This document shows, one piece after another, positions 12,842-39,485 of a stretch of DNA of 42,450 bases. The notes under the pieces were generated by a model that did no database searches, was not told where the DNA came from, and worked only from the letters and a program-made list of their open reading frames with translations. Every line of letters begins with the position of its first letter. The first letter of the stretch is position 1. The stretch is from Paludibacteraceae bacterium (lineage in GTDB: Bacteria; Bacteroidota; Bacteroidia; Bacteroidales; Paludibacteraceae): contig JAFSLP010000023.1 of NCBI GenBank assembly GCA_017448345.1, positions 1 to 42,450 on the forward strand, in the 5' to 3' direction. The position numbers were made by a program, and so were the translations under genes.

Positions 12842-15800
12842 TTACTTTTTAATCAGTTGTCCTTGTACATTGTACATTGTCCCATTGTGGATGATATAGA
12901 GCACACCGTCACGCAAAACCTTTGTACATGGTACATTGTCACTTTGTACATTGTCCACGCCCGTCGGCACATTGGCTTCTTCCATGTGTGTACGAACGGT
13001 AATCGGCATCGCCTCTTTGTCTGCGAGCACTGCCTTGGTCGTCCGGGGCGTGAGATCCTTCGCACGTGCAATGACGATATCCGTGTCGGCTGCGAATACT
13101 GCTCCTGCAAGGGAGTAGATGACCGCATGCTGTCCGTTACGTGTCTGTTTGGTCATCACGCTATGGGCGCCTGCCTGCCACTCTATCGGTTCATCGGTCT
13201 CGATAACAAGGTCGAGAGCTGCCACCGGTTTGTTGCTCATCAGGTGCAGTTCGCCTCTCTCCCAGCGCAGTTCAGCCTCTGTCTCGGTGCCTTCTGCCTG
13301 TGCTGCCATCATACGGCGCGCAGGTGTCGGAGACGGTTCTTCGTCTGCGAGGAGTATGTTGGTCAGCAAGACAATGTCTTGTACATTGATAACCTCGTCT
13401 TTGAACAGGTCGGCTGCCGTGAAGTTGTACGGACGCGCATTGTCATACTCGCCGAAGATGAAGTTGATGCTTGCCTGCAGGTCGAGTACGTCGGTCGTGC
13501 CTGTGAAGTTGGCATCGCCGTCGCCGAACAGCAACTTGGCGCTGAAACGCGAGGTGCTGCCCTCGTTCGTTACGTACAGCACATCTTCACTCGTGTAGCG
13601 GAAGACATTGTCTTGCCCGTTGCTGTTCATCGTCCAGAGCTTGTTTTCAAAATCAACAACCACTGCACTCACAGCGAATTGCGGGTTATTCAGGTCATCC
13701 TTGAGTGTAACCAGAGTGCTCGATGTCGGCAGGTAGTTCTGCGATGAGTGGTTATACAGCATGATGGTCGGAACAGCTTTGAGCAGTTCTGTATAATCCT
13801 CTGAGGCAGCCGGGAGATTGAAGACACGCGGCTCAAGTACTACTTGGTTGTTGAGGTTAAGTTCCGTAATGCCGGTTGAGAGCATCGGTACCACCTCTTC
13901 GATATGGTTGTACGAAGCATCCAGTGACTCCAGTTTCGGCAGAGCCTGTACAAAGAGACCTATGTTGCCTTCCAGTTCGTTGTTCGAGATGTCGAGTCCG
14001 GCAAGGTTGCTGATAGCATTTAGAGAAGCTATCTCTGTTTCTCCGAGACCGTTCTCAATGTCACCGCTTAGGTTGTTGTTCGACAGGTCAAGTCCGCTCA
14101 GGTACGGCAGGTTCAGCGTCGAGAGCGGGAAGTTACCGTCAATCTCGTTGTCCGAGAGGTCGAGAGCGACTACGTGTCCCTGATAGAAACTCAAGCCTTG
14201 GAAGGAGCCTGCGCCGGCTTCGCCCTTCGACATGTCCCAGCGGTTCTTCCAGTTGCGAGTGCTGAGTTCGGTGTAGATAGCCTGCAATGCAGCCCACTCG
14301 GCAGGATCCATGCGCCAGATGGTGAAGGAGCCGACCCACTCATCGTCGATGCCATAGTAGAGGTCGTTCTCTGCGATGGACAGATATACATCGTAGCTGC
14401 CCTTGTCAGCAGGCTCCTTCTCTACGTCATTGATCCTGTAGGAGAATGATGCATTGCCTATTCCGGCATCCGTGGAGGCGGTTGCTGTATGCAAAGCACC
14501 ATCATAGAGCGCATTCTTCGGAATAGTGACTGAATACATGCCGCTCGTCAGGGTTGCCTTATCTATCAGGAAGTTAGCGGAAAGCGAACCAGTGTAGTTA
14601 CCCTTACCCGTTACCTTCAGCGATGCGGTACCCGGCAGAATGTTGTTCGACCATGCAGCAGTATAGTCTTTGCCTGCTACCAAATCAAAGCCTGCGATGT
14701 ACCAACCCGGAGTCCACTCATAGCCAGTATAGGAGCAGTCGGTATAGGTAAAGACAATCGGTCCTTCCAACGGTTTCGGAGCAATAGTATAGGTATATTC
14801 CTTATATCCTATTGTGTGCGGGAAGTTACCTGCAAGCATCACATGTGCTGTACCGGCATTGATGTTATCGGTATAAGCGATGGTGTATTTGCCTTCCTGC
14901 ACGCCCGAAATAAATACATCCTGTGTCTGTGGTTCTCCGTTGTAAACCTTATCCACTACTTCGCCCTGCACTTCATAAGCACCCAAGTCTTGGTATTGGA
15001 CAGAAGGCAGCGAAGTGATATTACCCAATATGTCACGTGTGCGGAAATGGATGGTATGTACCGCCTTTGAAGCATCGAACTTGGCATCGAATGTGCCATG
15101 GAAGTCTGCATCAGATGAGAGACGCACCGGGTCGGTAGCCAGCATTGTCCATCCGTCCGCATCGGTGCTCTCCACCTGATATTCCAGATAACCGTCCACT
15201 CCGGTTGTATGAGTGTAGATTCCTTCTGCGTACATCGAATGGGTAGCAGAGAGGTCGTTCCATGTGCTCAGGTCTAACGGTGTCAGAATGACGGAAGCAC
15301 TCGGTTCCATCTTCACTTCACCGATACCGACCATGAACGAGTACATCACAGTTTGTCCGGCAGCAATCGTACGGTTTTTCCAGCACCAGCCCATTCCGCT
15401 GTCGTAGTTGCCGTTCTCTTGCAAATAGTATTGAGGATATTCAAAAGTATAATTACCAATCATCTGATTTGCGGAAGTATTTTCCGAGTAGAATCCGAAC
15501 CAATGATCATCGATGAGTGTGCTACCGGCAGCACCCAGACCGAAGATGATATAGAGCTGTCCGCCTTCGCCATCTTGCATCTTGATACCTATTATGTCGC
15601 CGTTGTCGTCTGTGATAGCCTCAATAGGGGCTGCATCATTGCGTCCAATCTGAACATCCGCGTGTGTTCCGAGAGAGATAACAGCATCTTCGCTACCCGT
15701 ATTGGACACACGATAAACAATGCGCGCCATGGCACCGGACTGCAATACGGATGTATTCACTTGCACATCATCGACTTTCAAACCGTCATATACATTTGTA

Positions 15801-18768: not shown

Positions 18769-19157
18769 GGAGAGTTGAAAGTTGAAAGTTGAAAGTTGAT
18801 AGTTGATAGAAGTTGAGTGTTGAGAGTTGAGTGTTGAGAGTAGTTGAAAGTTGAAAGTTGATAGTTGATAGAAGTTGAGAGTTCTTATCTCGGCAAAGCC
18901 TCGAACGATCGGCTGAAGCCGTATGGAGAGTTGAGAGTAGTTGATAGTTGAAAGTTGATAGTTGATAGAAGTTGAGAGTTCTTATCTCGGCAAAGCCTCG
19001 AACGATCGGCTGAAGCCGTATGGAGAGTTGAGAGTAGTTGATAGTTGAAAGTTGAAAGTTGATAGAAGTTGAGTGTTGAGTGTAGTTGAGAGTTGAGTGT
19101 AGTTGATAGTTGATAGTTGAAAGTTAATAGAAGTTGAAAGTTGAAAGTTGAAAGAAA
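18769..19157 (+). repeat. Heptad repeat array, unit AGTTGAA and variants, upstream of the sugar kinase
   Basis: Nearly 390 bases of degenerate 7-mers (AGTTGAA, AGTTGAT, AGTTGAG, TGTTGAG) with occasional AGA or AGT slips. A 97-bp segment starting GTTCTTATCTCGGCAAAG is present twice in tandem (18881 and 18978). It contains a non-heptad core with the near-palindrome CGGCTGAAGCCG. In this orientation the unit gives a TGA in all three frames. The array ends one base before the kinase ATG region, so it forms the gene's 5' leader. Confidence 0.9.
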
Positions 19158-19158
19158 T

Positions 19159-20130
19159 ATGATTCTAATTGCAGACAGCGGAAGTACCAAGGTGCATTGG
19201 TGTCTTGTGACCGCCAGCGGACAGTGTTCTGACGTGTTCACGGACGGCATCAACCCGCTTTTCCAGACATGTGACGCGATGCGTAACAGCATCAGTAACC
19301 AACTTCTGCCGAAGATTTCGTCCCTGCTGTGGGCAGGTACGCTGACGCATGTGTTCTTCTACGGGGCGGGCTGTACGCCGGAGAAGAAAGTGTATGTGCA
19401 ACGGGCATTGGAGGGTGTGTTCAAGAAAGCGGAAGTGCAGGTGGAGTCCGACATGTTGGGTGCCGCCCGAGGGCTCTTGGGACACCAGCCCGGCGTAGCA
19501 TGTATCCTCGGCACCGGCAGCGGCAGCTGTTACTATGACGGGAAGAAGATAGCATGGTCTGTTCCGTCGTTAGGGTATATCCTCGGCGACGAGGGCAGTG
19601 CCGCCGTGTTAGGGAAACGGCTGGTGGGAGACCTGCTGAAGAATCAGATGGGACAAAGGAATGATGGATTGATGAATGATGGATTGATGAATGATGGATT
19701 GATGAACGGTGGATTAGTGGACTTGAAGGAGCTGTTCTTTGAGGAGTACCAGACCTCGATGGCGGAGATTATCGAGAAAGTATATCGCCAGCCGTTCCCG
19801 AACCGTTACCTTGCAAGGCTGAGCCGTTTCTGCGCCGACCACATGGACGACCCGCGCATTCATGACCTTGTGTATGACCATTTCGTGCAGTTCATACGCC
19901 GTAACCTCGTGCAATATTTCGAAAAAAATGACCAAATGGTAAATGATAAAATGGTAAATGGTCAAATGGTAAATGCCGTGGGCTTTGTGGGGTCGGTGGC
20001 ATATTACTACAAGCCGATATTGGAGGAAGCGATGGCGGCGGAAGGGATACCGTTGGGCATTGTGCTGCAGGACCCCATCGAAGGGCTGAAAGAGTACCAC
20101 AAGGACGCCGTGGTGCCGACGACGGAATAA
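19159..20130 (+). CDS. BadF/BadG-type sugar kinase, N-acetylglucosamine (or N-acetylmuramate) kinase-like
   Basis: Predicted ATP-dependent sugar kinase of the ASKHA fold, 323 residues. Seen: phosphate-1 motif ILIADSGSTKVHWCLV at the N-terminus, ILGTGSGSCYYDGKKIAWS and GYILGDEGSAAVLGKRL in the middle. The start is the ATG at 19159; an in-frame TTG at 19141 belongs to the repeat array. Two in-frame repeat insertions are visible. NDGLM three times (19660-19715) follows the GKRLVGDLLKNQ segment. MVN repeats (19928-19975) lie just before AVGFVGSVAYYYKP. From memory, relatives are near 280 residues, so the insertions may explain the extra length. It heads a cluster with a glycosyltransferase and a SpoIID protein, which suggests amino-sugar or peptidoglycan salvage (inference). 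Confidence 0.8.
   Translation: MILIADSGSTKVHWCLVTASGQCSDVFTDGINPLFQTCDAMRNSISNQLLPKISSLLWAGTLTHVFFYGAGCTPEKKVYVQRALEGVFKKAEVQVESDMLGAARGLLGHQPGVACILGTGSGSCYYDGKKIAWSVPSLGYILGDEGSAAVLGKRLVGDLLKNQMGQRNDGLMNDGLMNDGLMNGGLVDLKELFFEEYQTSMAEIIEKVYRQPFPNRYLARLSRFCADHMDDPRIHDLVYDHFVQFIRRNLVQYFEKNDQMVNDKMVNGQMVNAVGFVGSVAYYYKPILEEAMAAEGIPLGIVLQDPIEGLKEYHKDAVVPTTE
19660..19715 (+). repeat. In-frame 15-bp repeats (AATGATGGATTGATG) in the sugar kinase
   Basis: Three to four 15-bp units encode NDGLM repeated. The same unit fills the spacer at 34051-34120. Confidence 0.9.
19928..19975 (+). repeat. In-frame AAATGGTAAATGACC-type repeats in the sugar kinase
   Basis: Units of AAATGGT/AAATGAC encode NDQMVNDKMVNGQMVN. 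The same family is present in the SpoIID, methyltransferase, MurF-Alr and MBOAT genes. Confidence 0.9.
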
Positions 20131-20133
20131 AGA

Positions 20134-20296
20134 GAGTTTATAGTTGAAAGTTGAAAGTTGATAGAAGTTGAGAGTTGAGTGTAGTTGAGAGTTGAGAGTT
20201 GAGTGTTGAGTGTAGTTGATAGTTGAAAGTTGATAGTTGATAGAAGTTGAGAGTTGATAGTTGAAAGTTGATAGTTGAAAGTTGAGAATTGAGTGA
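20134..20296 (+). repeat. Heptad repeat array (AGTTGAA family) between kinase and glycosyltransferase
   Basis: The whole 167-bp spacer after the kinase stop is composed of AGTTGA(A/T/G) heptads. It has the same orientation as the 18769 array and runs to two bases before the next ATG (20298). Confidence 0.9.
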
Positions 20297-20297: not shown

Positions 20298-21836
20298 ATG
20301 ATACAAACTTTCTTTTTGCCGGGGCGTGTGTGCAGTACAGACGCCATCCGGGGGATAGCAGACAAGAGTGCTGCGCAGTACACCCTGATTTGCCTCAAGC
20401 CGGAGATAGAATGGGTCTATCTGGGGCAGGAACGAATGGTGCAGGTGCTGGAGATGACCGGCGCCACCATGGTCTATGCCGACAGGTTTCATAAAGTACA
20501 AAGGGACCAAGTACCAAGTGACCAAGTACCAAGTGACCAAGTACCAAGTGACCAAGTACCAAATACAAAGGACGATGGGCAATGGGTGATTAGTGAGGCA
20601 CCGGTGATTGATTACCAGGCAGGCGCGCTCCGTGACGATTTCGACTTCGGCGCCGTAATGCTCTGGGACACCGCCAAACTGAAAGCACTCGTGGCGCAGA
20701 TGGACACCGCTTATGAGTTCGCAGGGCTTTATGACCTCCGTCTCCGCGCCGTCGCTTTCGGCAATCGGTGTGCAATGGTCGATACCACTCCGCTAAATCG
20801 ACAGGCAACCGATGCCTCCGCTCTCCCCACAAATATAAAATTTGCGGGGACCCCATTAGTGCACATTCCTGAGTATTTATATTACGAGGTGGAGACCGAC
20901 ACCCGCAAGTCCGGCGAGAAACTGTTCGACTACGTCGATCCGCGCAACAGGCAGGTGCAGGTGGAGATGGAGGCGTGCGTGACGGAGCACCTCAAACGCA
21001 TCGGCGCATACCTGCAGCCCGGCGAGTACATGCCCCTGCCGGAAGCAGGAGAGTACCCTGTGACAGCCAGTGTCATTATTCCTTGTAAGAACCGTGCGCG
21101 CACGATTGCAGACGCAGTACACAGCGCACTGAGCCAGAAAGTGCGCGAGGGCTATTCGTTCAACGTCATCGTCGTCGATGACAACTCCACCGACGGCACG
21201 GCGGAAATCATTGAAAAGTTGAGAGTTGAGAGTTTAAAGTTGAGAGAAGTTGAGCGTGGAGAGTTAATAGTTATTCATCAAGATCCCACATGGCACGCGA
21301 TAGGCGGCAACTGGAACGTGGCTATCCACGACCCGCGTTGCGGCAAATACGCCATCCAGCTGGACAGCGATGACACCTATTTTGACGAGAACACCGTACA
21401 GAAATTCATCGACACTTTTGAGAATGTACAAGGGGACAATGTACAATGTACAAAGTTCGGCATGGTGATAGGTACATACCGGCTGACGGACATGGAGGGC
21501 AAGGTGCTGCCTCCTGGCGTGATAGACCACCGCGAGTGGACGGACGACAACGGACGTAACAACGCCCTGCGTATCAACGGCTTGGGTGCTCCGAGAGGGT
21601 TCTATGTGCCGCTGCTGCGGACCATCAACTACCCTACCACCAAGTACGGCGAGGACTACGCCGTAGGGCTGCGCATCAGCAGAAACTGGCGTATCGGACG
21701 TATCTACGACGTCCTGTATAACTGCCGCCGGTGGGAGGACAACTCCGACGCCAACTGCGACATCGTAGCCATGAACCGCAACAACTGGTACAAAGACCGG
21801 CTGAGGACATGGGAACTCATAGCACGCCTGCATTGA
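20298..21836 (+). CDS. Family 2 glycosyltransferase with extra N-terminal domain
   Basis: A 512-residue protein; the start is ATG 20298 (an upstream in-frame TTG at 20289 is in the repeat). Residues about 255 onward are a GT-A glycosyltransferase. [18 protein letters not shown] is the nucleotide-binding start, [14 protein letters not shown] follows, and [11 protein letters not shown] holds the DXD-like metal site. [14 protein letters not shown] and EDYAVGLRI lie toward the end. The N-terminal 250 residues are not recognised. Three in-frame repeat segments occur: DQVPS repeats at 20504-20568, AGTTGAG heptads at 21216-21268 ([15 protein letters not shown]), and TGTACAAT units at 21424-21455 ([11 protein letters not shown]). 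The donor and acceptor sugars cannot be told. The 3' end overlaps the SpoIID gene. Confidence 0.82.
20504..20568 (+). repeat. In-frame 15-bp repeats (ACCAAGTGACCAAGT) in the glycosyltransferase
   Basis: Four units encode DQVPS in tandem. The same family is found in coaE (36492-36525) and, in reverse orientation, in the methyltransferase (23924-23956). Confidence 0.9.
21216..21268 (+). repeat. In-frame AGTTGAG heptads in the glycosyltransferase
   Basis: A short, irregular stretch of the AGTTGAA family in the forward orientation. A perfect array would bring in TGA; here the irregular units (AGTTTAA, AGAAGTTGAG) keep the frame open. Confidence 0.75.
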
Positions 21837-22945
21837 ATATCCGCGTCGGCATATTGACAGCTCCAAAGATAGAGTGGGAGCAACGGAAAGATACGTTCGT
21901 ATTAAAGAACGTGCGTATCGGCATCGGCTTCCATTGGGACAGGCACGAAGACCAAGAGTTCGCCGGCACGCTGGAGATAAAGTCTGTTCCCAACCCCGTT
22001 ATGCAAGGAGGAAAACCGTGGCAGGTAGCCGTCAACACCATTGAGTTGGAGGACTATCTGTGCTCCGTCATCTCGTCGGAGATGAGCGCCAACAGCCCGA
22101 TGGAGCTGCTCAAAGCGCATGCGGTGATTAGCCGCAGCTGGGCAATCAGGGCGATGGAGCACCCCAACCATGAGGGGTATCATGTGTGTGCCGATGACCA
22201 CTGCCAGCGCTACGAGGGTCTGAGGCGGATGAACGAGCGCGCCGTGGAAGCCGTACGTGCCACTGCCGGACAAGTGTTAGTAAGTACGAAGGGACGATGT
22301 ACGATGTACGAAGGAGCCAAGGAGGAGATTTGCGACTGTAGATACCACAAGTGCTGCGGAGGACGGACGGAGATATGGCGCACCTGCTGGGAGGACATCG
22401 ATGTGCCCTATATACAGTCCGTCGAGTGCCCTTACTGCAACCCCTCGTACATGGATAAATCCCTCGTGCATCGTACATCCGTCCTTCGTACAGTCCTGAA
22501 TGACTACGACCAAGAGACCACCGACTTCCATGACTGGCAGGTGACTTATACCGCCGAAGAACTGAGTGCTGTCATCCGCGGGAAATCAGGCATTGACTTC
22601 GGAGAGATCATCGACCTTGTTCCTCTCCACCGCGGTCCTTCGGGGCGTATTGACAGCCTGAAGATTGTCGGCACCAAGCACACGGAGGTTATCGGCAAAG
22701 AACTGAAGATACGCCTCTGGCTCAGCAAGACATGTCTGTACAGCAGTTGGTTTGAGATAAGTCGAAAGTCGAAAGTCGAAAGTCGAAAGCCACAATGGGT
22801 TCTTCGCGGTCATGGCTGGGGACACGGCGCAGGGCTCTGCCAGATAGGTGCCGCCGTCATGGCGGCGGAAGGCAGGACCTACGAAGAGATTCTGACCTAT
22901 TACTATCCCGGCACTACACTAAATGCCCAAATGGTAAATGAATAA
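21809..22945 (+). CDS. SpoIID/LytB-domain protein (amidase enhancer or peptidoglycan lytic transglycosylase-like)
   Basis: The SpoIID core is clear: [20 protein letters not shown] with the conserved Glu, then [18 protein letters not shown]. The C-terminal motif [16 protein letters not shown] is followed by [12 protein letters not shown]. SpoIID of sporulating Firmicutes cleaves peptide-free glycan strands; here the substrate is inferred to be peptidoglycan. Cysteine-rich segments ([27 protein letters not shown]) lie in the middle. I chose ATG 21809, overlapping the glycosyltransferase by 28 bp; TTG at 21833 overlapping the TGA is possible. Repeat insertions lie at 22284-22314, 22467-22492 (HRTSVLRT) and 22760-22790 ([10 protein letters not shown]). 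The last residues (NAQMVNE) and the stop codon are themselves repeat sequence. Confidence 0.82.
22467..22492 (+). repeat. CGTACATCCGTCCTTCGTACA element in SpoIID gene
   Basis: An imperfect palindrome bounded by CGTACA and TCGTACA. A copy identical over 21 bases lies in the methyltransferase gene at 23671-23691, in the same frame (RTSVLRT). It is the reverse of the ACGATGTACGATGT repeat at 22284-22314. Confidence 0.8.
22760..22790 (+). repeat. In-frame GTCGAAA heptads in SpoIID gene
   Basis: Four 7-bp units encode [10 protein letters not shown]. The same heptad occurs in the methyltransferase, ABC ATPase, dxs (degenerate) and MBOAT genes, always in the gene's sense orientation. Confidence 0.88.
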
Positions 22946-22971
22946 ATGGTAAATGTCCAAATGGTAAATGC
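22921..22971 (+). repeat. AAATGGTAAATG repeats spanning a stop/start junction
   Basis: The repeat encodes the last codons and TAA of the SpoIID gene and the ATG and first eight codons of the next gene. The TAA (22943-22945) and ATG (22946-22948) are adjacent. Confidence 0.88.
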
Positions 22972-24289
22972 CTTGGCCTTGCAGCGCAATAAATACAAGC
23001 ACCTCTCCGATGAGGAGTGGCGGTGGTTCTTGCAGCAAGCCGAAGGACGCGAACGGACGGCAGACAAACTGCCGACCTTTGCCGCCATCGAGGACTGGTG
23101 GTACCCCGTGAGGCTGAGTTGTGAGCAGTGTTCGTCGGAACTCACCGCACGATACAAAGCGGAGTTAGTCGAAAGTCAAAAGTCAAAAGTCGAAAGCCGT
23201 TTTCTCGACTTAACCGGAGGCTATGGCGTGGACACTTATTTTCTGTCCGAACTCTTTGCCCGTACGGACTACGTGGAGCAGAACGCCGAGCTGTGCCGGA
23301 TTGCCACACACAACTTCGCGCTTAGTCAAAAGTCGAAAGTCGAAAGACAAAAGCTCTCCATTACCGTTCACAACACCACCGCCGAGGATTTCTTACAATG
23401 CAGCGGTCCTACGGCGAAGCGGTCTTACAGCATCAGCGGTCATACAGGCGAAGCCGGTCATAGTCCGACAGGCTATTCCCTCATCTTCCTTGACCCGGCA
23501 CGGCGTGACAGCCACGGCGGCAAGGTATTCAAGTTAGCCGACTGCACGCCCAATGTGGTTGAGTTGCTGCCTACCCTCTTGGACCACCTCGCACCGGACG
23601 GACGGATTATGCTCAAGCTCTCGCCCATGCTCGACATCACGCAGGCTCTCAAGGAGCTATCCTTGGTACAGCGTACATCCGTCCTTCGTACATTGTCTTG
23701 GTCTGTCCATGTAGTGGCTGTGAAAAACGAGGTCAAAGAAGTGCTTTTGTTATCCCAATGCCTCAACGCCCCGATAAATAACCGGATGGTAAATGACCAA
23801 ATAAATGATAAAATGGTAAATGACCAAATAATCAAATGTATTGACCTCTCCCACCCCGAACAGGCTTTCTCTTTCACCTGCGGAGAAGAGCAGGCTGCGC
23901 AGCCCCAAATGGTAAATAATCCTTCGTCACTTGGTACTTCGTCACTTGGTACTTGGCTTTATGAGCCCAATGCCGCTATTCTGAAAGCAGGAGCTTTCAA
24001 ATTAGTCGGAGCGCGTTTCGGTTTGCAGAAATTAGATGTGAACACGCATCTGTATTGCTCGGAGACCTTGGTGAACGGTTTCCCGGGACGGGTCTGGAAG
24101 ATCACACAACGCCTAAATGCCCAAATGGCAAATGACCAAATGGCGAATGTCCTCTGCCGCAACTATCCGCTTACGCCGGAGCAGCTGAAGAAGAAACTGC
24201 GCCTCCGCGACGGAGGGACTGCGTTTGTCATCGGCTGCCGCGTAGCAGGCAAGCCCACTGTCTTCATGGCGGAAAGAGTCCTTTCGTAG
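22946..24289 (+). CDS. THUMP-like class I SAM-dependent methyltransferase (PG_1098 family)
   Basis: A 447-residue protein. The SAM-binding motif I is FLDLTGGYGVDTYFLSEL; the catalytic-type motif is YSLIFLDPARRDSHGGKVFK. PDGRIMLKLSPMLDI follows, and the end (GTAFVIGCRVAGKPTVFMA) fits the THUMP-like domain of this Bacteroidota family. RNA is the probable substrate (inference). The ATG at 22946 lies in a repeat, directly after the upstream stop; the native start may be slightly downstream (LALQRNKYKHL). At least seven repeat-derived insertions are in frame: 23167-23197, 23323-23353, 23398-23472, 23665-23697, 23783-23838, 23904-23956 and 24114-24150. It is the most heavily invaded gene in the window, yet the motifs are intact. 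It converges on the ABC ATPase gene with a 25-bp gap. Confidence 0.82.
   Translation: MVNVQMVNALALQRNKYKHLSDEEWRWFLQQAEGRERTADKLPTFAAIEDWWYPVRLSCEQCSSELTARYKAELVESQKSKVESRFLDLTGGYGVDTYFLSELFARTDYVEQNAELCRIATHNFALSQKSKVERQKLSITVHNTTAEDFLQCSGPTAKRSYSISGHTGEAGHSPTGYSLIFLDPARRDSHGGKVFKLADCTPNVVELLPTLLDHLAPDGRIMLKLSPMLDITQALKELSLVQRTSVLRTLSWSVHVVAVKNEVKEVLLLSQCLNAPINNRMVNDQINDKMVNDQIIKCIDLSHPEQAFSFTCGEEQAAQPQMVNNPSSLGTSSLGTWLYEPNAAILKAGAFKLVGARFGLQKLDVNTHLYCSETLVNGFPGRVWKITQRLNAQMANDQMANVLCRNYPLTPEQLKKKLRLRDGGTAFVIGCRVAGKPTVFMAERVLS
23398..23472 (+). repeat. GC-rich AGCGGTCTTACAGC-type repeats in the methyltransferase
   Basis: Degenerate units around CAGCGGTC, GAAGCGGTCTTACAGC and GGCGAAGCCGGTC encode CSGPTAKRSYSISGHTGEAG. 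Related units occur in the ABC ATPase (24690-24735, 24890-24970), dxs (28384-28449) and coaE (36624-36666). Confidence 0.75.
23783..23956 (+). repeat. In-frame AAATGRY and ACTTGGTAC repeats in the methyltransferase
   Basis: Two clusters. The first, 23783-23838, encodes MVNDQINDKMVNDQI. The second, 23904-23956, combines an AAATGGTAAAT unit with reverse-orientation ACCAAGTGACC units encoding SSLGTSSLGT. Confidence 0.85.
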
Positions 24290-24314: not shown

Positions 24315-25184
24315 TCACCCCAAGGGATTGAAGATGTCCATACCGAAGGCAGACGTGAAAGCGTCTGCTTTTTTCAGAGCTTCGGGTGTGTCGAGGAGGA
24401 CGCCTCCGCCCTGAGGGGACATCAGGAGAATGCGGTCGGAGAGTGCAAGCGCGAGGTCCAGTTCGTGGGTAGAGATAAGGATAGTCTTGTTCTGCTCATG
24501 CGCCAGCCTGCGGAGCATACGCAAGATGAGAATACGGTGCGGCAGGTCCAAGTGCGCCGTGGGTTCGTCCAGCAGAATAATGGGCGTCTGCTGCGCCAGC
24601 GCTTTGGCAATCAAGATGCGCTGTTTCTCTCCGTCCGAATGGGCGTTGAACATCGTGGAAGCAAATGCTTCCACAGACCGTGTTGCCGTATGACTGTCCT
24701 GCGGACTGTGAGACCGCTGCGCTGTAAGACTGAAGCCCACCTGTTGCAGGCTCTCCGCAATAATCCGTTCGTCAGGTTCAGTCAGTCCGCCGAGGAAAGA
24801 GGTATAGGGGTACCGCCCCATCGCCACCACGTCATGCACCGTCGTGTTCTCCAGCGAGAGCCGCTCGGTCAGGACCAGAGAGACCGATTTGCTGTAAGAA
24901 CGCTGCGATGTAAGAACGCTATCGGTGTTTGAACGCTGCGCTGTAAGACCGGCTTCGCCTGTTAGATTATACGTGCCGGACAAAGGCGGTTGGAGACCGG
25001 CGAGGGTACGGAGGAGAGTCGATTTGCCGCAGCCGTTGGGACCTAACATGCAGACCATCTCGCCCTCGCAGAGCGAGAAAGAGAGGTCGCGCTGCACAGC
25101 CTTCCGACTTTCGACTTTCGACTTTCGACCTCTATCGGCATAGCCGATGGACAACTTATTCGTAGAAATAGAGACGTTGGACAC
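24315..25184 (-). CDS. ABC transporter ATP-binding protein, FecE/BtuD-like (iron or cobalamin uptake)
   Basis: A 289-residue nucleotide-binding subunit. Walker A is [19 protein letters not shown]-loop region [14 protein letters not shown], signature [17 protein letters not shown], Walker [17 protein letters not shown] and switch His in [11 protein letters not shown]. The [10 protein letters not shown] segment is typical of ferric siderophore/cobalamin importers. The signature begins with His instead of the usual Leu. Repeat insertions: RKSKVESRK before the Walker A strand (25100-25131), [20 protein letters not shown] between Walker A and the Q-loop (24890-24970), and [18 protein letters not shown] before the signature (24690-24735). 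The start at 25184 overlaps the end of murF-alr by 29 bp, so they are cotranscribed. No permease or binding protein is nearby. Confidence 0.85.
24890..24970 (-). repeat. GC-rich CTGTAAGAACGCTGCG-type repeats in the ABC ATPase
   Basis: Three to four degenerate units encode [21 protein letters not shown] further stretch of the same family lies at 24690-24735 in the same gene. Confidence 0.75.
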
Positions 25185-28003: not shown

Positions 28004-29979
28004 ATATCAATAGGATTGATTCACCGGCTGATTTGAAGAAGCTACGGGTGGAAGAACTGCCGGCAGTATGCGCAGAACTGCGACAGTTCATCATCGAGGC
28101 TCTGAGCAAGAACCCCGGTCATCTGGCGTCGTCATTAGGCACCATCGAACTGACAGTGGCTCTGCATTATGTGTTCGACACGCCGGATGACAAGTTAGTA
28201 TGGGACGTGGGTCACCAAGCGTACGCGCACAAGATACTGACCGGCAGGCGCGACCGATTCCACACCAACCGGCAGTTCAAAGGTCTCTCTCCGTTCACGA
28301 ACCCGGCGGAGAGCGAATATGACGCCTTCATCGCCGGTCATGCCTCCAATAGCATATCTGCGGCGTTAGGCCTTGATATAGCAGACCGGCTTCGCCTGAC
28401 AGAGCACAGACCGGCTTCGCCTGACGGAGTACAGACCGATTCACCTAAAAGACACAACGTGGCAGCCATCATCGGCGACGGTGCGATGACGGGCGGACTG
28501 GCATTCGAGGGACTGAACAACACCTCGATGGACAAGAACAACCTTCTGATTGTGCTCAACGACAACCATATGGCGATTGACCCGCTTAAAGGCGGCTTCA
28601 CCCAATACCTTGTGGACCTGACGACGAGTTCGACCTACAACAAATGGCGCTGGCGTCTATACCGTTTCGCCGCGAAGATGCACCTTGTCGATGAACGCAA
28701 GAGACGTGCTATCCTCCGCCGTAACAACAGTCTGAAAGCCGTGCTGAGCAAACAGCCGAGTAACATCTTCACCGGGATGAACATCCGTTATTTCGGTCCG
28801 ACCGACGGGCATGACGTGGAAGGGCTGGTGCGCATCCTGAGCGAGATAAAGAACCACCGCGGCCCCAAAGTGCTGCATATCGTCACCAAGAAAGGCAAGG
28901 GTTACGCACCGGCGGAGAACGACCAGACCGTATGGCACGCTCCGGGAGAGTTCAACGTCACTACCGGCGAGCGCCGTAGTGACGAATTAAAAATTAAAAA
29001 TTACGAATTAACCACCCCGCCCCTATGGCAGGAGGTGTTCGGCGAGACGCTGTTAGAGCTGGCGAAGAAGAACGAGAAGATTGTAGGCGTGACTCCCGCC
29101 ATGCCCAGCGGCTGCAGCATGAGCATCATGCAGAAAGAGCTGCCGGACCGCGTGTTCGATGTCGGCATCGCGGAAGGTCATGCCGTGACATTCAGCGCCG
29201 GACTGGCAAAAGCCGGAGTCCTGCCCTATTGCAACATCTACTCGACGTTCATGCAGCGCGCGTATGACAACATCGTTCATGACGTGGCGTTGCAGAACCT
29301 GCATGTGGTGCTGTGTATCGACCGCGCCGGCATCGTCGGCAACGACGGCGCCACGCACCACGGTCTGTTAGACATCGCCTATCTGCGCCCCATCCCCAAC
29401 ATACAGATATGCGCGCCGAGGACGGCAGAGGACCTGCGCGAGATGATGATACTGGCGGAAGGGATAGAGGGTCCGGTAGCAATCAGGTATCCGAGAGGAA
29501 GGACGCCTATGAATGATGAAATGAGCGCGGCAAAACCGCTCAATGATGGAATGATGGCATTAGGCAAGGGCGTGAAACTCAGGGACGGAAAAGACATAGC
29601 CGTGCTGACGATAGGCGCTATCGGCAACCCGATGGCGGAAGCCATAGAAGAAGTCGAAAGTCAAAACGGGACAGAGCCTGTCGAAAGACAATTTGCGCAT
29701 TATGACATGCGGTGGGTGAAACCGTTAGACGAGGAGCTATTACACGAGGTGGGACGCAAATACAAGACCATCGTGACCGCCGAGGACGGCATGATATCCG
29801 GCGGTTTCGGCAGCGCCGTATTGGAATGGATGGCGGACCACGGCTATACCCCGCGTATCATCCGTCTGGGCGTGAACGACCAGTTCGTAGAACACGGTTC
29901 TACCAAAGAATTATACCATTTACTGAAATTAGACAAGGAGGGCTTATGCGAATCGTTATTGCAGGCGCTGGAGAAGTAG
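27991..29979 (+). CDS. dxs: 1-deoxy-D-xylulose-5-phosphate synthase
   Basis: Condenses pyruvate and glyceraldehyde 3-phosphate, the first step of the MEP isoprenoid pathway (thiamine diphosphate enzyme, cytoplasm). Seen over 662 residues: [25 protein letters not shown]-type N-terminus (split here by length), [17 protein letters not shown], ThDP motif [10 protein letters not shown] to [21 protein letters not shown] with the catalytic Glu, and [11 protein letters not shown] near the end. Four regions that are variable loops in the family carry repeats: [20 protein letters not shown] (28384-28449), [12 protein letters not shown] (28981-29012), [17 protein letters not shown] (29505-29560) and [13 protein letters not shown] (29652-29692). 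The motifs are intact, so the enzyme is probably active. It is followed by trkA and trkH, an order seen in other Bacteroidales. Confidence 0.95.
28384..28449 (+). repeat. GC-rich ACCGGCTTCGCCTGACAG repeats in dxs
   Basis: Two and a half units of about 27 bases (CAGACCGGCTTCGCCTGAC with variations) are inserted just before the ThDP-binding GDG motif. They are related to the repeats in the ABC ATPase and coaE. Confidence 0.8.
28982..29011 (+). repeat. CGAATTA/AAAATTA heptads in dxs
   Basis: A 30-base stretch of four heptads (CGAATTA, AAAATTA, AAAATTA, CGAATTA), identical to the stretch at 36089-36118. It encodes [11 protein letters not shown]. Confidence 0.9.
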
Positions 29980-34050: not shown

Positions 34051-34120
34051 GCCGCTCGCAGAGCGAGCTAAATGATGGATTGATGAAATGATGGATTGAT
34101 GAATGATGGATTGATGAATG
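34051..34120 (+). repeat. ATGGATTGATGAATG repeats in the SGNH-MBOAT spacer
   Basis: 15-bp units fill the spacer; the last ATGATGGATT is the start of the MBOAT gene. The same unit is in frame in the sugar kinase (19660-19715). Confidence 0.88.
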
Positions 34121-36067
34121 ATGGATTTCTTGCACCATATATTAGCTTTTGATGCGGAGTCGCCTCTGCTGTTCACCCAGTTTTATTTCTGGGCGTTCTT
34201 TGCGCTGGTTTATGCCCTGTTTGCTTTCATCATGGAAAGCCCGCTTCTCTCGAAGTCGAAAGTCAAAAGCCGTTTGCACCTCCGCAACGTCTATCTGCTG
34301 TTCGTCAGTTGGTTCTTCTATTACAAAACCAGCGGGCTGTTTCTGCTCATTCTCGCGTTTGTGACTTTCTCCGACTGGGTCATCGCGCAGCAAATCAGAA
34401 ATGCCCAAACGAAGGATTACGGTTTACGAATTACGAAATACAAGATACCTGTTGCCACTGTACTGCTTGCACTTTCTGTTGTTATCGACTTGGGGCTGTT
34501 AGCCTATTTCAAGTACGCCTATTTCTTCACGAACATGCTCAACGACCTGTTCGGCACAGGTTTCCGCGTATTTGACATCTTCGCCTACATCGGCAACGGT
34601 TTCAGTGAGGCAGGCAGGTTCTCGGTCGATACGATAGTTCTGCCGGTGGGTATCTCGTTTTATATCTTCCAAGTCATCTCCTACACGGCGGATGTCTATC
34701 GCGGACGCATCCAGCCGGTGAAGAACATACTTGATTTCGGTTTCTACGTGTCCTTCTTCCCTCAGTTAGTGGCAGGTCCTATTGTCCGTGCGGAGGAGTT
34801 CATTCCGCAGCTGTACAAGCCTTTCCGCCTCAGCCGCAGGCTCTTCGGACTGGCGGTCTTCTGGATTCTCAACGGCTTGGCGAAGAAAATCATCATGTCC
34901 GATTATCTGGCAGTGAACATCATCGACCGTGTGTTTGACAACCCGCTGCTGTTCTCGGGATTCGAGAACCTGTTTGCGCTCTTCGCCTATTCGCTGCAGG
35001 TCTATGCGGACTTCTCCGGCTATACGGATGTGGCTATCGGCGTGGCTATGCTGATGGGTTTCTATCTGCCCAAGAACTTCGACTCGCCCTATAAGTCCCG
35101 GAACCCTCAGGAGTTCTGGCGGCGGTGGCATATGTCGTTAGGACGGTGGCTCAAGACCTACCTTTATATTCCTCTGGGCGGCAACCGTCGTATCGGCTTC
35201 GGCACGTATTTCTGGTGGGCACTCATCGCCCTTGTCTCCGCCGCCCTGACGGGCTGGTGGTGGCTGCTGATACCGTTTACGCTGCTGATAGCAGGAGTGG
35301 CGGTCGCGCATCGCCGGATAGTACATGGTAAATGGTCCAATGGTAAATTACTCTACTCCAACCTCAACTCGTTCATCACGCAGGTGCTGGGCGGTCTGTG
35401 GCACGGAGCAAGCTGGAACTTCATCATCTGGGGCGGCATCAACGGCATTGGCATGATTGCCAACAAGATATGGCGTGAGATGAACTGGCATGTGCGGTTC
35501 GGGTCGATGACCGTCCTGACCCTCACTCTCGCGATGCTGGACTGGCGGTACAACCTGCCGGTATGGCGTCTCTTTGCCGTCTGGGCAGGCATCGTCTGGA
35601 CCGGCACACTGATACGGTATATATGGTGGCTGGTCACCAGAGACAAATTACGAATTACAAATTACGAATTAAAAATTACGAATGCCTTGGCGGACGCATG
35701 GGCTATTGCCCAGACCTTCACATTCATCACCTTCACGCGTCTCTTCTTCCGGTCGTCCAGCAACCTTGACCCGGCTACGGCAAACGAGGTGGCATGGGCT
35801 ACCGCCAAGAACATGGTCAACCAGATTGGCGGAGCATGGAACAATGCCATCATCCCTGCCTTCCTCTGGGAGTTCCGGTGGGTGGTGGCGATGTTCGTGG
35901 CGGGCATGGTCATCCACTGGCTGCCAGCCGACTGGAAAAGGCGTTACAGACTCCGGTTTGCATCCATGCCTCTGTGGCTCATGGTGATTGCCGTATGCCT
36001 TGCCATCCTTGTCATCTACCAGTTCGTCACAGCAGATATGCAACCCTTTATCTACTTCCAATTCTGA
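34118..36067 (+). CDS. MBOAT-family membrane O-acyltransferase
   Basis: A 649-residue polytopic membrane protein (about 10-12 hydrophobic segments). MBOAT signatures: VLPVGISFYIFQVISYTADVY, FFPQLVAGPIVRAEEF, YADFSGYTDVAIG, EFWRRWHMSLGRWLKTYLYI-type segment and LGGLWHGASWNFIIWGG, with the catalytic His in WHGAS. It would pass acyl (acetyl) groups across the inner membrane to surface glycan. Start at 34118 or 34121 (MMD), at the end of a repeat spacer. In-frame repeats: SKSKVKSR (34251-34272), KDYGLRITKYK (34411-34442), HGKWSNGKLL (35328-35350) and KLRITNYELKITN (35641-35682). These appear in loops between membrane segments. It pairs with the upstream SGNH gene. Confidence 0.9.
   Translation: MMDFLHHILAFDAESPLLFTQFYFWAFFALVYALFAFIMESPLLSKSKVKSRLHLRNVYLLFVSWFFYYKTSGLFLLILAFVTFSDWVIAQQIRNAQTKDYGLRITKYKIPVATVLLALSVVIDLGLLAYFKYAYFFTNMLNDLFGTGFRVFDIFAYIGNGFSEAGRFSVDTIVLPVGISFYIFQVISYTADVYRGRIQPVKNILDFGFYVSFFPQLVAGPIVRAEEFIPQLYKPFRLSRRLFGLAVFWILNGLAKKIIMSDYLAVNIIDRVFDNPLLFSGFENLFALFAYSLQVYADFSGYTDVAIGVAMLMGFYLPKNFDSPYKSRNPQEFWRRWHMSLGRWLKTYLYIPLGGNRRIGFGTYFWWALIALVSAALTGWWWLLIPFTLLIAGVAVAHRRIVHGKWSNGKLLYSNLNSFITQVLGGLWHGASWNFIIWGGINGIGMIANKIWREMNWHVRFGSMTVLTLTLAMLDWRYNLPVWRLFAVWAGIVWTGTLIRYIWWLVTRDKLRITNYELKITNALADAWAIAQTFTFITFTRLFFRSSSNLDPATANEVAWATAKNMVNQIGGAWNNAIIPAFLWEFRWVVAMFVAGMVIHWLPADWKRRYRLRFASMPLWLMVIAVCLAILVIYQFVTADMQPFIYFQF
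35641..35682 (+). repeat. CGAATTA/CAAATTA heptads in the MBOAT gene
   Basis: Six heptads encode KLRITNYELKITN in a loop. Same family as in dxs (28982) and around the four-helix-bundle fragment (36084, 36270). Confidence 0.88.
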
Positions 36068-36083: not shown

Positions 36084-36119
36084 AAATTACGAATTAAAAA
36101 TTAAAAATTACGAATTAAA
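36084..36119 (+). repeat. Left CGAATTA heptad repeat flanking the four-helix-bundle fragment
   Basis: Heptads CGAATTA and AAAATTA in forward orientation, six bases before the small gene's ATG. It is the inverted counterpart of the right copy at 36270-36313. Confidence 0.88.
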
Positions 36120-36125: not shown

Positions 36126-36284
36126 ATGAAAACAGAAGAAAATAATATCATTATAGATAAAACTTTTGCTTTTGCAGTTCGCATTGTTAATCTATATAAA
36201 TATCTAACTAATAATGCGACAAACAAAGAGTTTGTTTTAAGTAAACAACTTCTTAGAAGTGGAACATCCATTCGTAATTTGTAA
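36126..36284 (+). pseudogene. Truncated four-helix-bundle protein (23S rRNA intervening-sequence protein family)
   Basis: The 52-codon frame reads MKTEENNIIIDKTFAFAVRI and then KEFVLSKQLLRSGTSI, a clear match to the N-terminal half of the four-helix-bundle family (PF05635; IVP/Avd-like). In full-length members this continues GTSIGANIxEA and to about 120 residues. Here the homology stops at GTSI and the frame enters the heptad repeat (RNL, stop). Inverted heptad arrays flank it on both sides, between the MBOAT and coaE genes. Family members are encoded in 23S rRNA insertions and next to diversity-generating retroelements, so a link to mobile sequence is plausible. The fragment is probably not functional. 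Confidence 0.75.
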
Positions 36285-36313
36285 TTCGTAATTTGTAATT
36301 CGTAATTTGTAAA
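36270..36313 (-). repeat. Right inverted CGAATTA/CAAATTA heptad repeat
   Basis: Five to six heptads in the reverse orientation (plus strand TAATTCG, TAATTTG). They truncate the four-helix-bundle frame and end just before the coaE ATG at 36315. Confidence 0.9.
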
Positions 36314-36314: not shown

Positions 36315-36965
36315 ATGCTCATCGGTATTACAGGAGGCATCGGCAGTGGCAAATCCACTATAGCGCACGCACTGGCGGCGCAGGGTTATGCCGTGTATGA
36401 CTGCGACAAAGAGGCGAAACGTATCATCGCTCAGGACAAAGACGTGCAGGCTGCCATCATCGCGCTGCTGGGCGAAGAGGCATTCAGGGAAGCACCAAGC
36501 GACCAAGTACCAAGTACCAAGGTTTATAACACCGCCTATGTCGCCAGACGCGTTTTTGACGAGCCGGAGCTGCTGGACGCTCTAAACGCCATCGTCCACC
36601 CTGCGGTGAAGAAGGATATCTTACAGCGGAGCGGTCTCACAGCCAAGCAGTCTCGCAGCAAAGCGGTCCTTTTCATCGAATCCGCCATACTCTTCGAGTC
36701 GGGTCTGGACGTCCTCTGCGACCGTATCGTCCGGGTTGAGGCACCCGAGGAAGTGCGTCTGCAACGGGTTCTCGCGAGGGACTACGGAGGACAGGACACG
36801 CCGGATAATAGATATAAGGTACGCGCACGTATGCACGCGCAGATGAGTCCCGACAGGATGACTGCCGGACAAGCGGCAAAGACCATCCGCCTCCTCAACG
36901 ACGGCAAGACACCCGTTGCCCGGTTAGCCGGAGAACTCTTGAGAGAAATCGCAAATAAACCGTAA
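36315..36965 (+). CDS. coaE: Dephospho-CoA kinase
   Basis: Phosphorylates dephospho-CoA, the last step of coenzyme A synthesis. The P-loop (MLIGITGGIGSGKSTIAHAL), DCDKEAKRI, NAIVHPAVKKD and VLFIESAILFESGLD are all present over 216 residues. Family members are near 200; the excess matches two repeat insertions. The first is EAPSDQVPSTK (36492-36525), where relatives have a short loop before the conserved A-x-x-VF segment. The second is LQRSGLTAKQSRSKA (36624-36666) before LFIES. The start lies directly after the inverted heptad array. Key motifs are intact. Confidence 0.93.
   Translation: MLIGITGGIGSGKSTIAHALAAQGYAVYDCDKEAKRIIAQDKDVQAAIIALLGEEAFREAPSDQVPSTKVYNTAYVARRVFDEPELLDALNAIVHPAVKKDILQRSGLTAKQSRSKAVLFIESAILFESGLDVLCDRIVRVEAPEEVRLQRVLARDYGGQDTPDNRYKVRARMHAQMSPDRMTAGQAAKTIRLLNDGKTPVARLAGELLREIANKP
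36492..36525 (+). repeat. In-frame ACCAAGTGACC-type repeat in coaE
   Basis: About two 15-bp units encode PSDQVPSTK. Same family as in the glycosyltransferase (20504-20568). Confidence 0.85.
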
Positions 36966-37000: not shown

Positions 37001-37003
37001 TTT

Positions 37004-38083
37004 ATGAACTATCTTATTTCCGGAGGGGGAACCGGCGGACATATCTTCCCCGCAGTCAGTATAGCCAATGCCTTGCGTGAGTTGGACCCGCAGGCGAACA
37101 TCCTCTTTGTCGGCGCGCTGGGACGCATGGAGATGGAGCGTGTGCCGCAAGCCGGTTACAAAATCATCGGTCTGCCGGTCCGCGGTTTCAACCGTGCGCA
37201 GCCGTGGAAGAATATCACGGTGCTCATCGACCTTGCCAAATCCATCCGGCAGGTGAAGAAAGTCATCCGTGATTTCCGTCCGGACGTAGGCGTGGGCGTA
37301 GGCGGTTACGCGTCCGGCGCAGCCATGTGGGCGGCAGCGAACATGGGCATACCTATCCTGCTGCAGGAGCAGAACGGTTTCGCAGGCGTCACCAATAAGA
37401 TTCTCAAGGACAAAGCCGCCAAGATATGCGTGGCGTATGAGGGTATGGAGCGGTTCTTCCCTGCCGAGAAGATCATCCTCACCGGCAATCCCGTTCGCCA
37501 GAACCTATTGAAAGGTGAAAGGATAAAGGTGAAAGGTGAAAGGAATTTATTGATCATCGGCGGCAGCCTTGGTGCCCGGACTATCAACGAGGCAATAAAA
37601 GCGGCTCTCACGCAGTTGGCAGAGAGTGATATTCACGTTGTCTGGCAGACCGGCAAGGGCTATTATGAGTCCTGCAAGGCGGCATGGGAAGCAGCAGGCA
37701 AACCGGCGAACATCGAGTGTCTGGACTTCCTGTCCGACATGCCGGACAGGTACGCCAATGCCGACCTCGTCATCTCACGTGCAGGTGCTTCGTCCATCAG
37801 CGAGCTCTGTCTGCTCGGTAAACCCGCTATCCTCGTCCCCTCGCCCAACGTGGCGGAGGACCACCAGACCCATAACGCCATGGCGCTGGTCAACAAAGAC
37901 GCCGCCGTCCTTGTGCGCGACGCGGATGCCGCTGAACAGCTCATCCCTGAGGCGCTACGGCTGCTCAAAGACACCCAACGGCTGCAGGCGCTCCATACGA
38001 ACATCCTGAAACTCGCCCAGCCCGACTCCGCACGGCGCATTGCCGAAGAAGTCATCGCCCTTGCAAAAAACAAACATGCGTAA
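37004..38083 (+). CDS. murG: UDP-N-acetylglucosamine--MurNAc-pentapeptide lipid I transferase
   Basis: Adds GlcNAc to lipid I to form lipid II, at the inner face of the membrane. Seen over 359 residues: GGGTGGHIFPAVSIANALRE near the N-terminus (donor loop 1), VGVGGYASGAAMWAA, QEQNGFAGVTNKIL, LLIIGGSLGARTINEA and ISRAGASSISELCLLGKPAI with LVPSPNVAEDHQTHNA. One repeat segment (LLKGERIKVKGER, 37508-37543, AAAGGTG heptads) replaces the linker between the two Rossmann domains. The 3' end overlaps the next gene by 8 bp. Confidence 0.95.
   Translation: MNYLISGGGTGGHIFPAVSIANALRELDPQANILFVGALGRMEMERVPQAGYKIIGLPVRGFNRAQPWKNITVLIDLAKSIRQVKKVIRDFRPDVGVGVGGYASGAAMWAAANMGIPILLQEQNGFAGVTNKILKDKAAKICVAYEGMERFFPAEKIILTGNPVRQNLLKGERIKVKGERNLLIIGGSLGARTINEAIKAALTQLAESDIHVVWQTGKGYYESCKAAWEAAGKPANIECLDFLSDMPDRYANADLVISRAGASSISELCLLGKPAILVPSPNVAEDHQTHNAMALVNKDAAVLVRDADAAEQLIPEALRLLKDTQRLQALHTNILKLAQPDSARRIAEEVIALAKNKHA
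37508..37543 (+). repeat. In-frame AAAGGTG heptads in murG
   Basis: Four to five heptads encode KGERIKVKGER at the interdomain linker. Confidence 0.85.
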
Positions 38084-39485
38084 GACATCCGTCATATGGT
38101 TATGTGGGTTGCTGAGCCTTGTGCTCGGCGGGTGCACTACGCCTGCCGTCCGGCAGGCTGAAGCCGTAGTGGCGCAGGCGGACAGCCTATGGCAGGCAGG
38201 CAAGATGTACGGCATCGACGAAGGCGACTCCGCCTCCCTCGCACAAGCCTATGAGACACTCTCTACTTTTAACTCTCCACTACTATCAACTTTCAACTAT
38301 CAACTTTCAACTGATTTCTCCCGTCTCTGCTACCACTACGGCAGGCTGCTCCGCGAGAAAGACAATCCGGTAGCCGCCATGCAGGTCTTCATTGACGCCA
38401 CCCATTCTCGCACGCGCGATTACCATATCCTCGGGCGCGTGTATAGCAATATAGGCGACCTGTGCCACTTGGCAGGCGACTTCCCGCTCTCCTATGACAT
38501 GTTCTCCCGCTCCGCCGATTGCTTCCTCCGAAACGGAGACACCTTATTATATTATTATGATTTGAATAATATGGCGTTTGAGTTGGCAAACTTAGCAGAT
38601 AGTAGTGCCTGTTTGCTTATATTGCGACAAATAGAACGCATCCCTGAACTTTCTGCTTTATCTATGATGACAAAGTCAGAAATGTACTTGAAATGCCATC
38701 AGTATGATTCTGCTATTTGTTTTGCAAACCAGTTATGTATATTAGATGAGAATAATACTACGGGACTACTTATTAAAGCTCAGTCTTTTTCCTTTTTAAA
38801 AGAGCAAGATTCGGCGGCTCTCTATGCGGATTTGGTTTTAAGACATTCTTCGTTGTTATCAGACAAGCAGAACGCATTGTATATTTTAACCAATGACGAT
38901 TCCCGAAAAAACATAGAGAGTATTCGTCAGATTGCAGCGGAAAGGTCAGATATACAACAACTTCTAAAGATACGCCAAGGAAAGTTATCTCAAGCCGTCC
39001 AATTATTGGAACAAGATTTACAAAGTAAGCCGGACTGGCGAAAATGGGTGATATTGTTCTTCGTAGTGTTGCTCTGTTTTACGGCATTTTGTGTCCCTTA
39101 TATTTTACGCAGACATGAACAACAAATGAAGGAACAAGTTACTATTCTTAGCGACAAGCAAGCCACTAATATTATTGATTCCATCAAAAAACATATAGAT
39201 ACAACAGATATTAATAGCACTCTCCATTGGAAAAATTATAAAGAGATGAAAACGGATGTCGATTTATATATGGGAGGGTTAGTTAGCAAATTGGAAACAC
39301 ATCATCTCAATGAAGTAGAAATTCGTTTTTGTATATTGACACTTTTGGATTTCCGTCTGAAACGGATTGCCGAGACCCTTAATTACAGTTATCCCTCAGG
39401 AATTAAAACTCTAAAAAAACGTACTTCTGACAAACTAAAAACCACTCCTTTAGAACTAAAAAATTATCTGTTGCATAAATTGTAG
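38076..39485 (+). CDS. TPR-containing membrane-anchored protein with HTH-like C-terminus (putative regulator)
   Basis: A 469-residue protein starting at ATG 38076 inside the end of murG. The N-terminus has a lipobox (LSLVLGGC). Residues about 40-310 look like TPR helices (LGRVYSNIGDLCHLAGDFPL). A membrane segment (VILFFVVLLCFTAFCVPYIL) lies near 320-343, followed by a coiled coil. A C-terminal HTH-like region (EVEIRFCILTLLDFRLKRIA, then GIKTLKKRTSDKL) lies at about 415-460. Similar Bacteroidota proteins are thought to sense in the periplasm and act on DNA. The first 156 codons are GC-rich like murG; from about 38545 the codons become AT-rich abruptly. STFNYQLST (38263-38318) comes from the AGTTGAA heptad family read in reverse. 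Confidence 0.72.
   Translation: MRKTSVIWLCGLLSLVLGGCTTPAVRQAEAVVAQADSLWQAGKMYGIDEGDSASLAQAYETLSTFNSPLLSTFNYQLSTDFSRLCYHYGRLLREKDNPVAAMQVFIDATHSRTRDYHILGRVYSNIGDLCHLAGDFPLSYDMFSRSADCFLRNGDTLLYYYDLNNMAFELANLADSSACLLILRQIERIPELSALSMMTKSEMYLKCHQYDSAICFANQLCILDENNTTGLLIKAQSFSFLKEQDSAALYADLVLRHSSLLSDKQNALYILTNDDSRKNIESIRQIAAERSDIQQLLKIRQGKLSQAVQLLEQDLQSKPDWRKWVILFFVVLLCFTAFCVPYILRRHEQQMKEQVTILSDKQATNIIDSIKKHIDTTDINSTLHWKNYKEMKTDVDLYMGGLVSKLETHHLNEVEIRFCILTLLDFRLKRIAETLNYSYPSGIKTLKKRTSDKLKTTPLELKNYLLHKL
38263..38318 (-). repeat. AGTTGAA heptads in reverse orientation within the TPR gene
   Basis: Units read on the plus strand as TTCAACT, TATCAAC and similar encode STFNSPLLSTFNYQLST. This is the orientation of the heptad that has no stop codon. 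Confidence 0.85.

Follow-up and report, generated by a model that had tools for sequence, protein, structure and literature searches.

Heptanucleotide short tandemly repeated repetitive (STRR) sequences are known from cyanobacteria, which also carry small dispersed repeats, very small dispersed sequences linked with heptad arrays and likened here to our repeats for their small size and dispersal. The repeats that we describe lie in a window of 42,450 nucleotides from a Paludibacteraceae bacterium (assembly GCA_017448345.1, contig JAFSLP010000023.1, positions 1 to 42,450 of the forward strand), where arrays of 7-bp units, or of 15-bp units made of 7 + 8 bp, occupy spacers and stand in frame inside many conserved genes. 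The window is contig C11 of a source genome of 2,501,641 bases in 120 contigs, with a completeness of 80.6 percent. The accessible part of MacGregor (2015, PMC4679880) reports TAACTGA repeats in Beggiatoaceae, Cyanobacteria and five Bacteroidetes including Paludibacter, describes mixed heptamers beside them, and places the copies within open reading frames (ORFs) mostly at protein ends. For the G-rich heptamers of Xanthomonas and Nostoc, the accessible part of another paper (PMC4692102) ties a preference for four units to G-quadruplexes and finds the repeats under-represented in coding regions. The literature searched, outside which most subscription papers fell, contained no description of core genes with many heptad families in them.

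Judged against what is accessible of PMC4679880, the window repeats resemble the STRR and TAACTGA repeats in their tandem 7-bp units, many copies, patchy spread and mixed heptamers, and also in that stop codons limit the copies within ORFs and that the spreading route is unexplained. Units of 7 bp stand head to tail in several copies and an identical unit is dispersed at many genomic places, as in heptanucleotide STRRs, which the initial annotation had rightly named as the nearest analogue. However, the STRR and TAACTGA repeats of that account are mostly intergenic, with ORF copies mainly at protein ends, whereas the window repeats sit in internal loops of core enzymes, with many families per genome, replacement of one family by another at a given site, and a frame-neutral 15-bp form. 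On balance, and with belief only slightly outweighing doubt, we favour the reading that the window holds dense satellite-like repeats of the STRR kind that are dispersed by copying, change in concert, and are kept where frame and fold tolerate them.

The heptad and 15-bp repeats of the window are real. Exact self-match runs of at least 11 matches numbered 19 at lag 7, 13 at lag 14, 10 at lag 15, 5 at lag 21 and 6 at lag 30, and none of 50 dinucleotide shuffles (42,430-42,450 bases) contained any run at these lags; an earlier periodicity run had used 20 shuffles. Tandem Repeats Finder returned arrays from 12863 to 38312, in which the units listed by the initial annotation are present. A stricter detector (lags 7, 14, 15 and 21) counted 31 arrays, at least two of them (27528 and 27851) being repeats of another kind; in 20 further stretches of the source genome, together 271,415 bases, it counted 45. 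The interval is therefore dense even by the standard of its own genome. Relatives were gathered with the dxs protein as query, which gave at least 80 loci at 59-85 percent identity, and the nearer loci among the matches listed are labelled Bacteroidales or Paludibacteraceae, many of them from ruminant gut. Read from the table, at least one lag-7 run is present in 42 of the 52 nearer relatives (L009-L060) and in 7 of the 28 more distant ones (L061-L088), with N runs in L012, L029 and L064 adding one or two counts to every lag. Together, the relatives' loci and the window hold 92 different units of 7 bp, several of which recur in many loci.

Searching the units in the source genome and its sisters gave a dispersed, patchy picture with genome-specific bursts. 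Arrays of AGTTGA occur in 41 of 150 genomes of the family (104 hits in the source genome), a pattern identical when read backwards, which makes its reversed control uninformative. The 15-bp family was found in 5 of the 150, with 107 hits in the source genome (reversed control, 2), 50 in G134 and 13 in G009, which belongs to another genus. GTCRAAA is present in 44 of the 81 genomes of the genus, with 112 hits in the source genome, and in 7 of 198 across the phylum. These genome counts include the source genome, and the hits overlap inside arrays, hence they are not numbers of arrays. The dominant repeat family differs sharply from species to species.

The GTCRAAA arrays show a defined block structure. 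Among 88 arrays of at least two units, taken from the source genome and four of its genus with sites common to several genomes kept, 81 end in AAAG, 54 start with AGTC and 10 with AAGT. A second set adds L009-L060 and takes arrays of three to five units only; 74 of its 78 arrays were kept after short or repeated flanks had been removed, and these comprise 47 blocks of four units (30 bp), 23 of three units (23 bp) and 4 of five units (37 bp), followed by C in 68 percent of cases. The internal order GAGG was found in 16 of 44 four-unit blocks, 10 of them in G174, compared with 4.4 expected. Because unlinked copies often have a common internal order, these results suggest block copying, and not local slippage alone. 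The preference for four units resembles that of the Xanthomonas and Nostoc heptamers in the accessible part of PMC4692102, but here there are no G runs and the blocks lie inside genes; by analogy, the common preference may hint at a shared process.

The same data bear on the alternative that these are ordinary simple-sequence repeats, produced by local replication slippage at each site and kept where the frame allows. The tandem structure and the differences of 7 or 14 bp seen several times between close species agree with slippage, and selection for an open frame accounts for much of the coding pattern. Against it stand the unlinked sites with identical units, ends and internal order, and the variation of the abundant family by genome. 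MutS1 scored above cut-off in 74 of the 81 genomes of the genus, the source genome too, and in 11 of the 12 that we call GTCRAAA-rich (at least 20 GTCRAAA hits; the other genomes number 69, and the genomes are incomplete), on which grounds we reject loss of mismatch repair; it also argues against slippage. We consider slippage an unlikely explanation.

Quite unlikely, in our judgement, is that the blocks are non-autonomous mobile elements moved by a transposase in trans, in the manner of miniature inverted-repeat transposable elements, Rickettsia palindromic elements or repetitive extragenic palindromic (REP) sequences. Fixed ends, a preferred size of 30 bp and dispersed copies are what such elements would show, and hairpin-like elements are found in the same loops. 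However, the target duplications that the initial annotation had proposed to map did not appear above chance around the 74 GTCRAAA blocks (k = 2-9; at most one pair above the shuffled pairs, at k = 5 and 6), and the length of some loops is unchanged. Y1, the transposase family searched, matched in 6 of the 12 GTCRAAA-rich genomes and in 19 of the 69 others, with no match in the source genome at its 80.6 percent completeness. The likeness to Rickettsia palindromic elements put forward by the initial annotation holds for placement, since in both cases several families stand in frame in unrelated genes (accessible part of PMC10969869), but not for structure: those elements are about 150 bp long and palindromic, whereas ours are tandem heptads of about 30 bp, and the GTCRAAA block, inspected by eye, is non-palindromic and lacks terminal inverted repeats, reading directly AGTC...AAAG.

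Particular carriers were also considered and rejected. The Y1 REP-associated tyrosine transposase showed no clear link with the bursts, half of the GTCRAAA-rich genomes being without a match. A reverse transcriptase as copier was matched in 21 of the 81 genomes, 4 of the 12 GTCRAAA-rich and 17 of the 69 others, again with no link. GTCGAAA arrays are carried by 26 IMG/VR stretches (L112-L137), but many are longer and most have ends unlike those of the 30-bp block, and the 23-base form in which the 15-bp unit was searched is in none of them, so viral carriage of the block is unsupported.

Comparison of single sites between relatives bore out that the repeats fall mostly in variable loops or linkers, as had been annotated. 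Alignment of 12 window genes with their orthologues gave 245 inserts of at least 5 residues, terminal ones counted, and none in trkA (66 aligned rows, full lengths 441-448); insertion was judged by alignment for genes other than 12842-17752, murG and 38076-39485, for which too few relatives aligned. Of 211 internal inserts of at least 15 nt, 56 percent share 13-mers with at least three unrelated sites, compared with 35 percent of controls (n = 1055). The inter-domain site of dxs carries six families over 14 rows (AATTACR, AGCGGTC, GGAGAGGG, AGTTGA, GTCRAAA and GTAC-type), by patterns that we defined ourselves and of which some short matches may be chance. Turnover is seen among close species: L042 has a TTTCACC array where L028 and L038 have an AGCGGTC element, and other loops have an array in one species and none in another. 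In most rows, as read from the alignment, the length of one MBOAT loop varies by no more than a few residues, while the sequence there looks like differing repeat families. Since some loops have turned into heptad arrays at constant length, replacement or concerted change in place matters beside insertion. The differing repeats at the same protein loops of related species suggest a copying process by which repeats spread within genomes and displace each other.

Several families stand in frame in conserved genes, as the initial annotation had held: 12 open genes of the window contain in-frame repeats. Nine have a Pfam match (a family 2 glycosyltransferase, a SpoIID-domain gene, a PG_1098-like gene, an ABC-transporter ATPase, murF-alr, an MBOAT gene, coaE, a murG-type glycosyltransferase and dxs); the gene at 19159-20130 has no Pfam match, that at 38076-39485 none above cut-off, and the remaining one is 12842-17752. 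In the window, the AGTTGA arrays are found chiefly between genes, and the GTCRAAA and 15-bp arrays within them. A flank test placed 26 arrays in frame, 4 on the same strand in another frame and 1 with a stop; most arrays were left unclassified by it, so the gene alignments carry the in-frame argument. Units of 15 bp and blocks of 30 bp preserve the frame by simple arithmetic.

Counted as genes with the motif in sense and antisense, we obtained 18 and 0 for GTCRAAA, 10 and 0 for GTACAAAG, 8 and 0 for NDQMV (although all three frames are open in reverse and just one forward), 6 and 0 for CAATGTA (open in six frames), 4 and 0 for AATTACR, 6 and 1 for TTACGGG, 3 and 1 for PSDQV, 29 and 14 for AGCGGTC, and 0 and 6 for AGCTGA, which is open only in reverse. 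Both flanks are clearly coding for 22 of the 67 GTCRAAA blocks; 20 of these stand in sense and 2 in antisense, and 14 of the 20 are read in the frame giving VESQKSKVES. The coding copies are without stops, and most have the orientation that yields polar peptides. Such peptides and the orientation bias might indicate that the arrays have their own function, as regulatory sites or as linkers in proteins, and are selected for it, and a translational role has been proposed for the TAACTGA repeats in the accessible part of PMC4679880. The interchange of families at one loop and the absence of any array from the same loop in close species make this very unlikely.

The pattern extends to another genus of the same class, that of G393 and G365, which includes some single-contig genomes and has arrays in a chorismate-binding gene and, within the editing domain, in leucyl-tRNA synthetase. 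The chorismate-binding loop measures 30-32 nt in 17 of 20 sequences and 43 nt in three; two of the 20 (the query's own genome and L218) hold GTCRAAA arrays, L213 an ATTCCAA-type array in the GTCRAAA register and L230 another heptad array, the rest being weak or without one. In the leucyl-tRNA synthetase loop 7 of 20 rows, counting the query's own genome, have GTCRAAA arrays, while units resembling GTCAGAA, GAGCCA, GTTTC or ACAACCA occur in others; six rows of only 11 nt fell outside the period test. The best lag was 7 in all strongly periodic sequences, 4 of 4 in the first loop and 9 of 9 in the second, and from these sequences the heptamer types apparently differ at both loops while staying in register. 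As a separate observation, GTCGAAA array copies are abundant in G436 and G477 of this genus, perhaps another genome-specific burst. An artefact of metagenome assembly or binning, which the 120 contigs and incomplete state of the source genome might invite, is scarcely credible, given that relatives assembled separately have arrays in frame at the same sites and that in-frame arrays also occur in the single-contig genomes G393 (4.8 Mb) and G430 (3.5 Mb).

Dispersal by copying with concerted change, the reading that we favour, would proceed as follows. Blocks of about four heptads would come to lie at many unlinked sites, with common ends and an internal order common beyond chance, as the GTCRAAA data indicate. 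Species would come to differ in their abundant family and a single loop would host different families by species, as we observed. Arrays in a loop would differ yet apparently keep register, as if their units changed in concert, which the two alignments from the other genus suggest. Coding copies would remain in frame, stop-free and mostly in the polar-peptide orientation, as seen here. The copying between sites may be akin to gene conversion or template switching, no transposase footprint having been seen, and selection would retain the copies that land in tolerant loops. A period of 7 would help, because a stop-free 7-bp unit gives one heptapeptide in all three frames; stop-containing heptamers in genes would persist mainly in the frame-neutral 15-bp (7 + 8) form or in antisense. 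The initial annotation had proposed a common generating mechanism: the fixed ends and four-unit size of GTCRAAA and the swapping of families at sites agree with this, while that one mechanism made all the families is something we infer.

Several observations weigh against this reading. Blocks with the same internal order cluster by genome only moderately (80 pairs versus 61.4 expected, reached in 41 of 2000 shuffles). The GTCRAAA arrays have a sharp end phase and the AGTTGA arrays a fairly sharp one, but that of the AATTGA and AAAGGTG arrays is loose. AGTTGA (3 genes in sense, 6 in antisense) and AAAGGTG (3 and 5) are stop-bearing units and yet stand in sense in three genes each; orthologous rows, which are not independent, were counted repeatedly in all these gene counts; and part of the GTCRAAA orientation bias arises because AGTCAAA stops in every reverse frame. 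The sharing of 13-mers showed no excess for trkH and sgnh inserts and little for murF-alr. Searches for Y1, reverse transcriptase and MutS1, and for these enzymes only, yielded none that explains the bursts, and no intermediate was found. A stronger proposal, that a dedicated cellular process writes four-heptad stop-free blocks over tolerant gene sites and keeps the copies current by conversion, is speculative and we think it improbable.

The individual arrays are on the plus strand except where minus is given. ACAATGT-type arrays lie in the 3' part of the open gene 12842-17752 (12857..12953, minus), and the very long open gene before it (8557-12822) was seen to have 420-bp tandem repeats (9689-10689). 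Long AGTTGA(A/T/G) arrays, mostly in spacer, follow at 18773..19154, with a 97-bp tandem unit at 18829-19077. The gene 19159-20130 has in-frame 15-bp arrays at 19659..19715 (NDGLM) and 19926..19975 (AAATGGTAAATGACC, NDQMV), and L048 has the same family at the latter. AGTTGA(A/T/G) arrays lie in the spacer 5' of the glycosyltransferase gene (20132..20293), which itself contains an in-frame 15-bp array (ACCAAGTGACCAAGT, PSDQV) at 20494..20570 and an irregular AGTTGAG array with a stop-free reading at 21217..21246. An in-frame ACAATGT-type block follows at 21420..21455; 30 of its bases are found exactly on two more contigs (C17 and C48), making three copies in the source genome.

The SpoIID-domain gene carries an ACGATGT array (22294..22311) and a 30-bp GTCRAAA block of four units (22760..22789), and a 15-bp NDQMV-type array (22920..22972) spans its end and the start of the next gene. 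Five arrays lie in the PG_1098-like gene: GTCRAAA blocks of four units (23167..23196) and three units (23324..23346), the latter site being GTCRAAA-type also in L012, L025 and L048; an NDQMV-type array (23775..23838), where L012, L014 and L025 have ATATCGA-type sequence; a 15-bp array CTTCGTCACTTGGTA (SSLGT; 23922..23956); and a AAATGACCAAATGGC array (24115..24149). A GTCGAAA array is near the N terminus of the ABC-transporter ATPase (25101..25129, minus), where relatives have TTACGGG-type and other sequences, and a 15-bp NDQMV array is in the alanine-racemase half of the murF-alr fusion (26095..26143, minus). Between the DXP_synthase_N and Transket_pyr domains of dxs there is an AATTAAA/AATTACG array (28982..29011); the region before dxs has 11-bp (AATAACCCACT) and 21-bp tandem arrays at 27325-27385 and 27470-27642, the 11-bp arrays being present in relatives too.

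A 15-bp NDGLM-type array (34071..34127) lies between the gene 32722-34050 and the MBOAT gene and reaches the MBOAT start; copies of a GATGGATTGATG-type repeat (34036-34127) appear to form the end of the first gene and the start region of the second. Within the MBOAT gene a short GTCRAAA block (34252..34271) occupies a loop of near-constant length across species, and an AATTACG/AATTACA array (LRITNYELKITN) is in frame at 35643..35683. Related arrays lie in the spacer 3' of this gene (AATTACG/AATTAAA, 36084..36118) and directly before coaE (AATTACG/AATTACA, 36270..36312, minus). A coaE loop holds an AAGTACC array (PSDQVPST, 36490..36521), murG an in-frame AAAGGTG array (37509..37544), and the gene 38076-39485 an AGTTGA-family array in the stop-free, QLSTFN-type orientation (38258..38312, minus). 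Elements of 16-25 bp with hairpin-like AGCGGTC or AGACCGGCTTCGCC cores were noted at 28382-28438, 23402-23462, 24893-24948 and 36619-36668, in dxs, the PG_1098-like gene, the ABC ATPase and coaE, and some relatives have heptads at the same loops. A short hairpin-like sequence with a CCCAAGGG or CCCTTGGG core is nested in heptad arrays of L038 (near 10410) and in the dxs insert of L048.

Heptamer repeats are known from scattered bacteria without an accepted spreading route. Here alignments show the ends of the arrays, the order of the copies, the turnover of families and the coding filter, and the spreading mechanism thereby becomes testable. If a dedicated writing process did exist, we would be dealing with a mobile or satellite element of a type without a known mechanism, whole genomes would switch repeat dialect, and protein loops would be rewritten from a common vocabulary. 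Copies sit in DXP synthase, dephospho-CoA kinase and other core enzymes, among them leucyl-tRNA synthetase in the other genus with single-contig genomes, and make the repeats a source of new protein loops.

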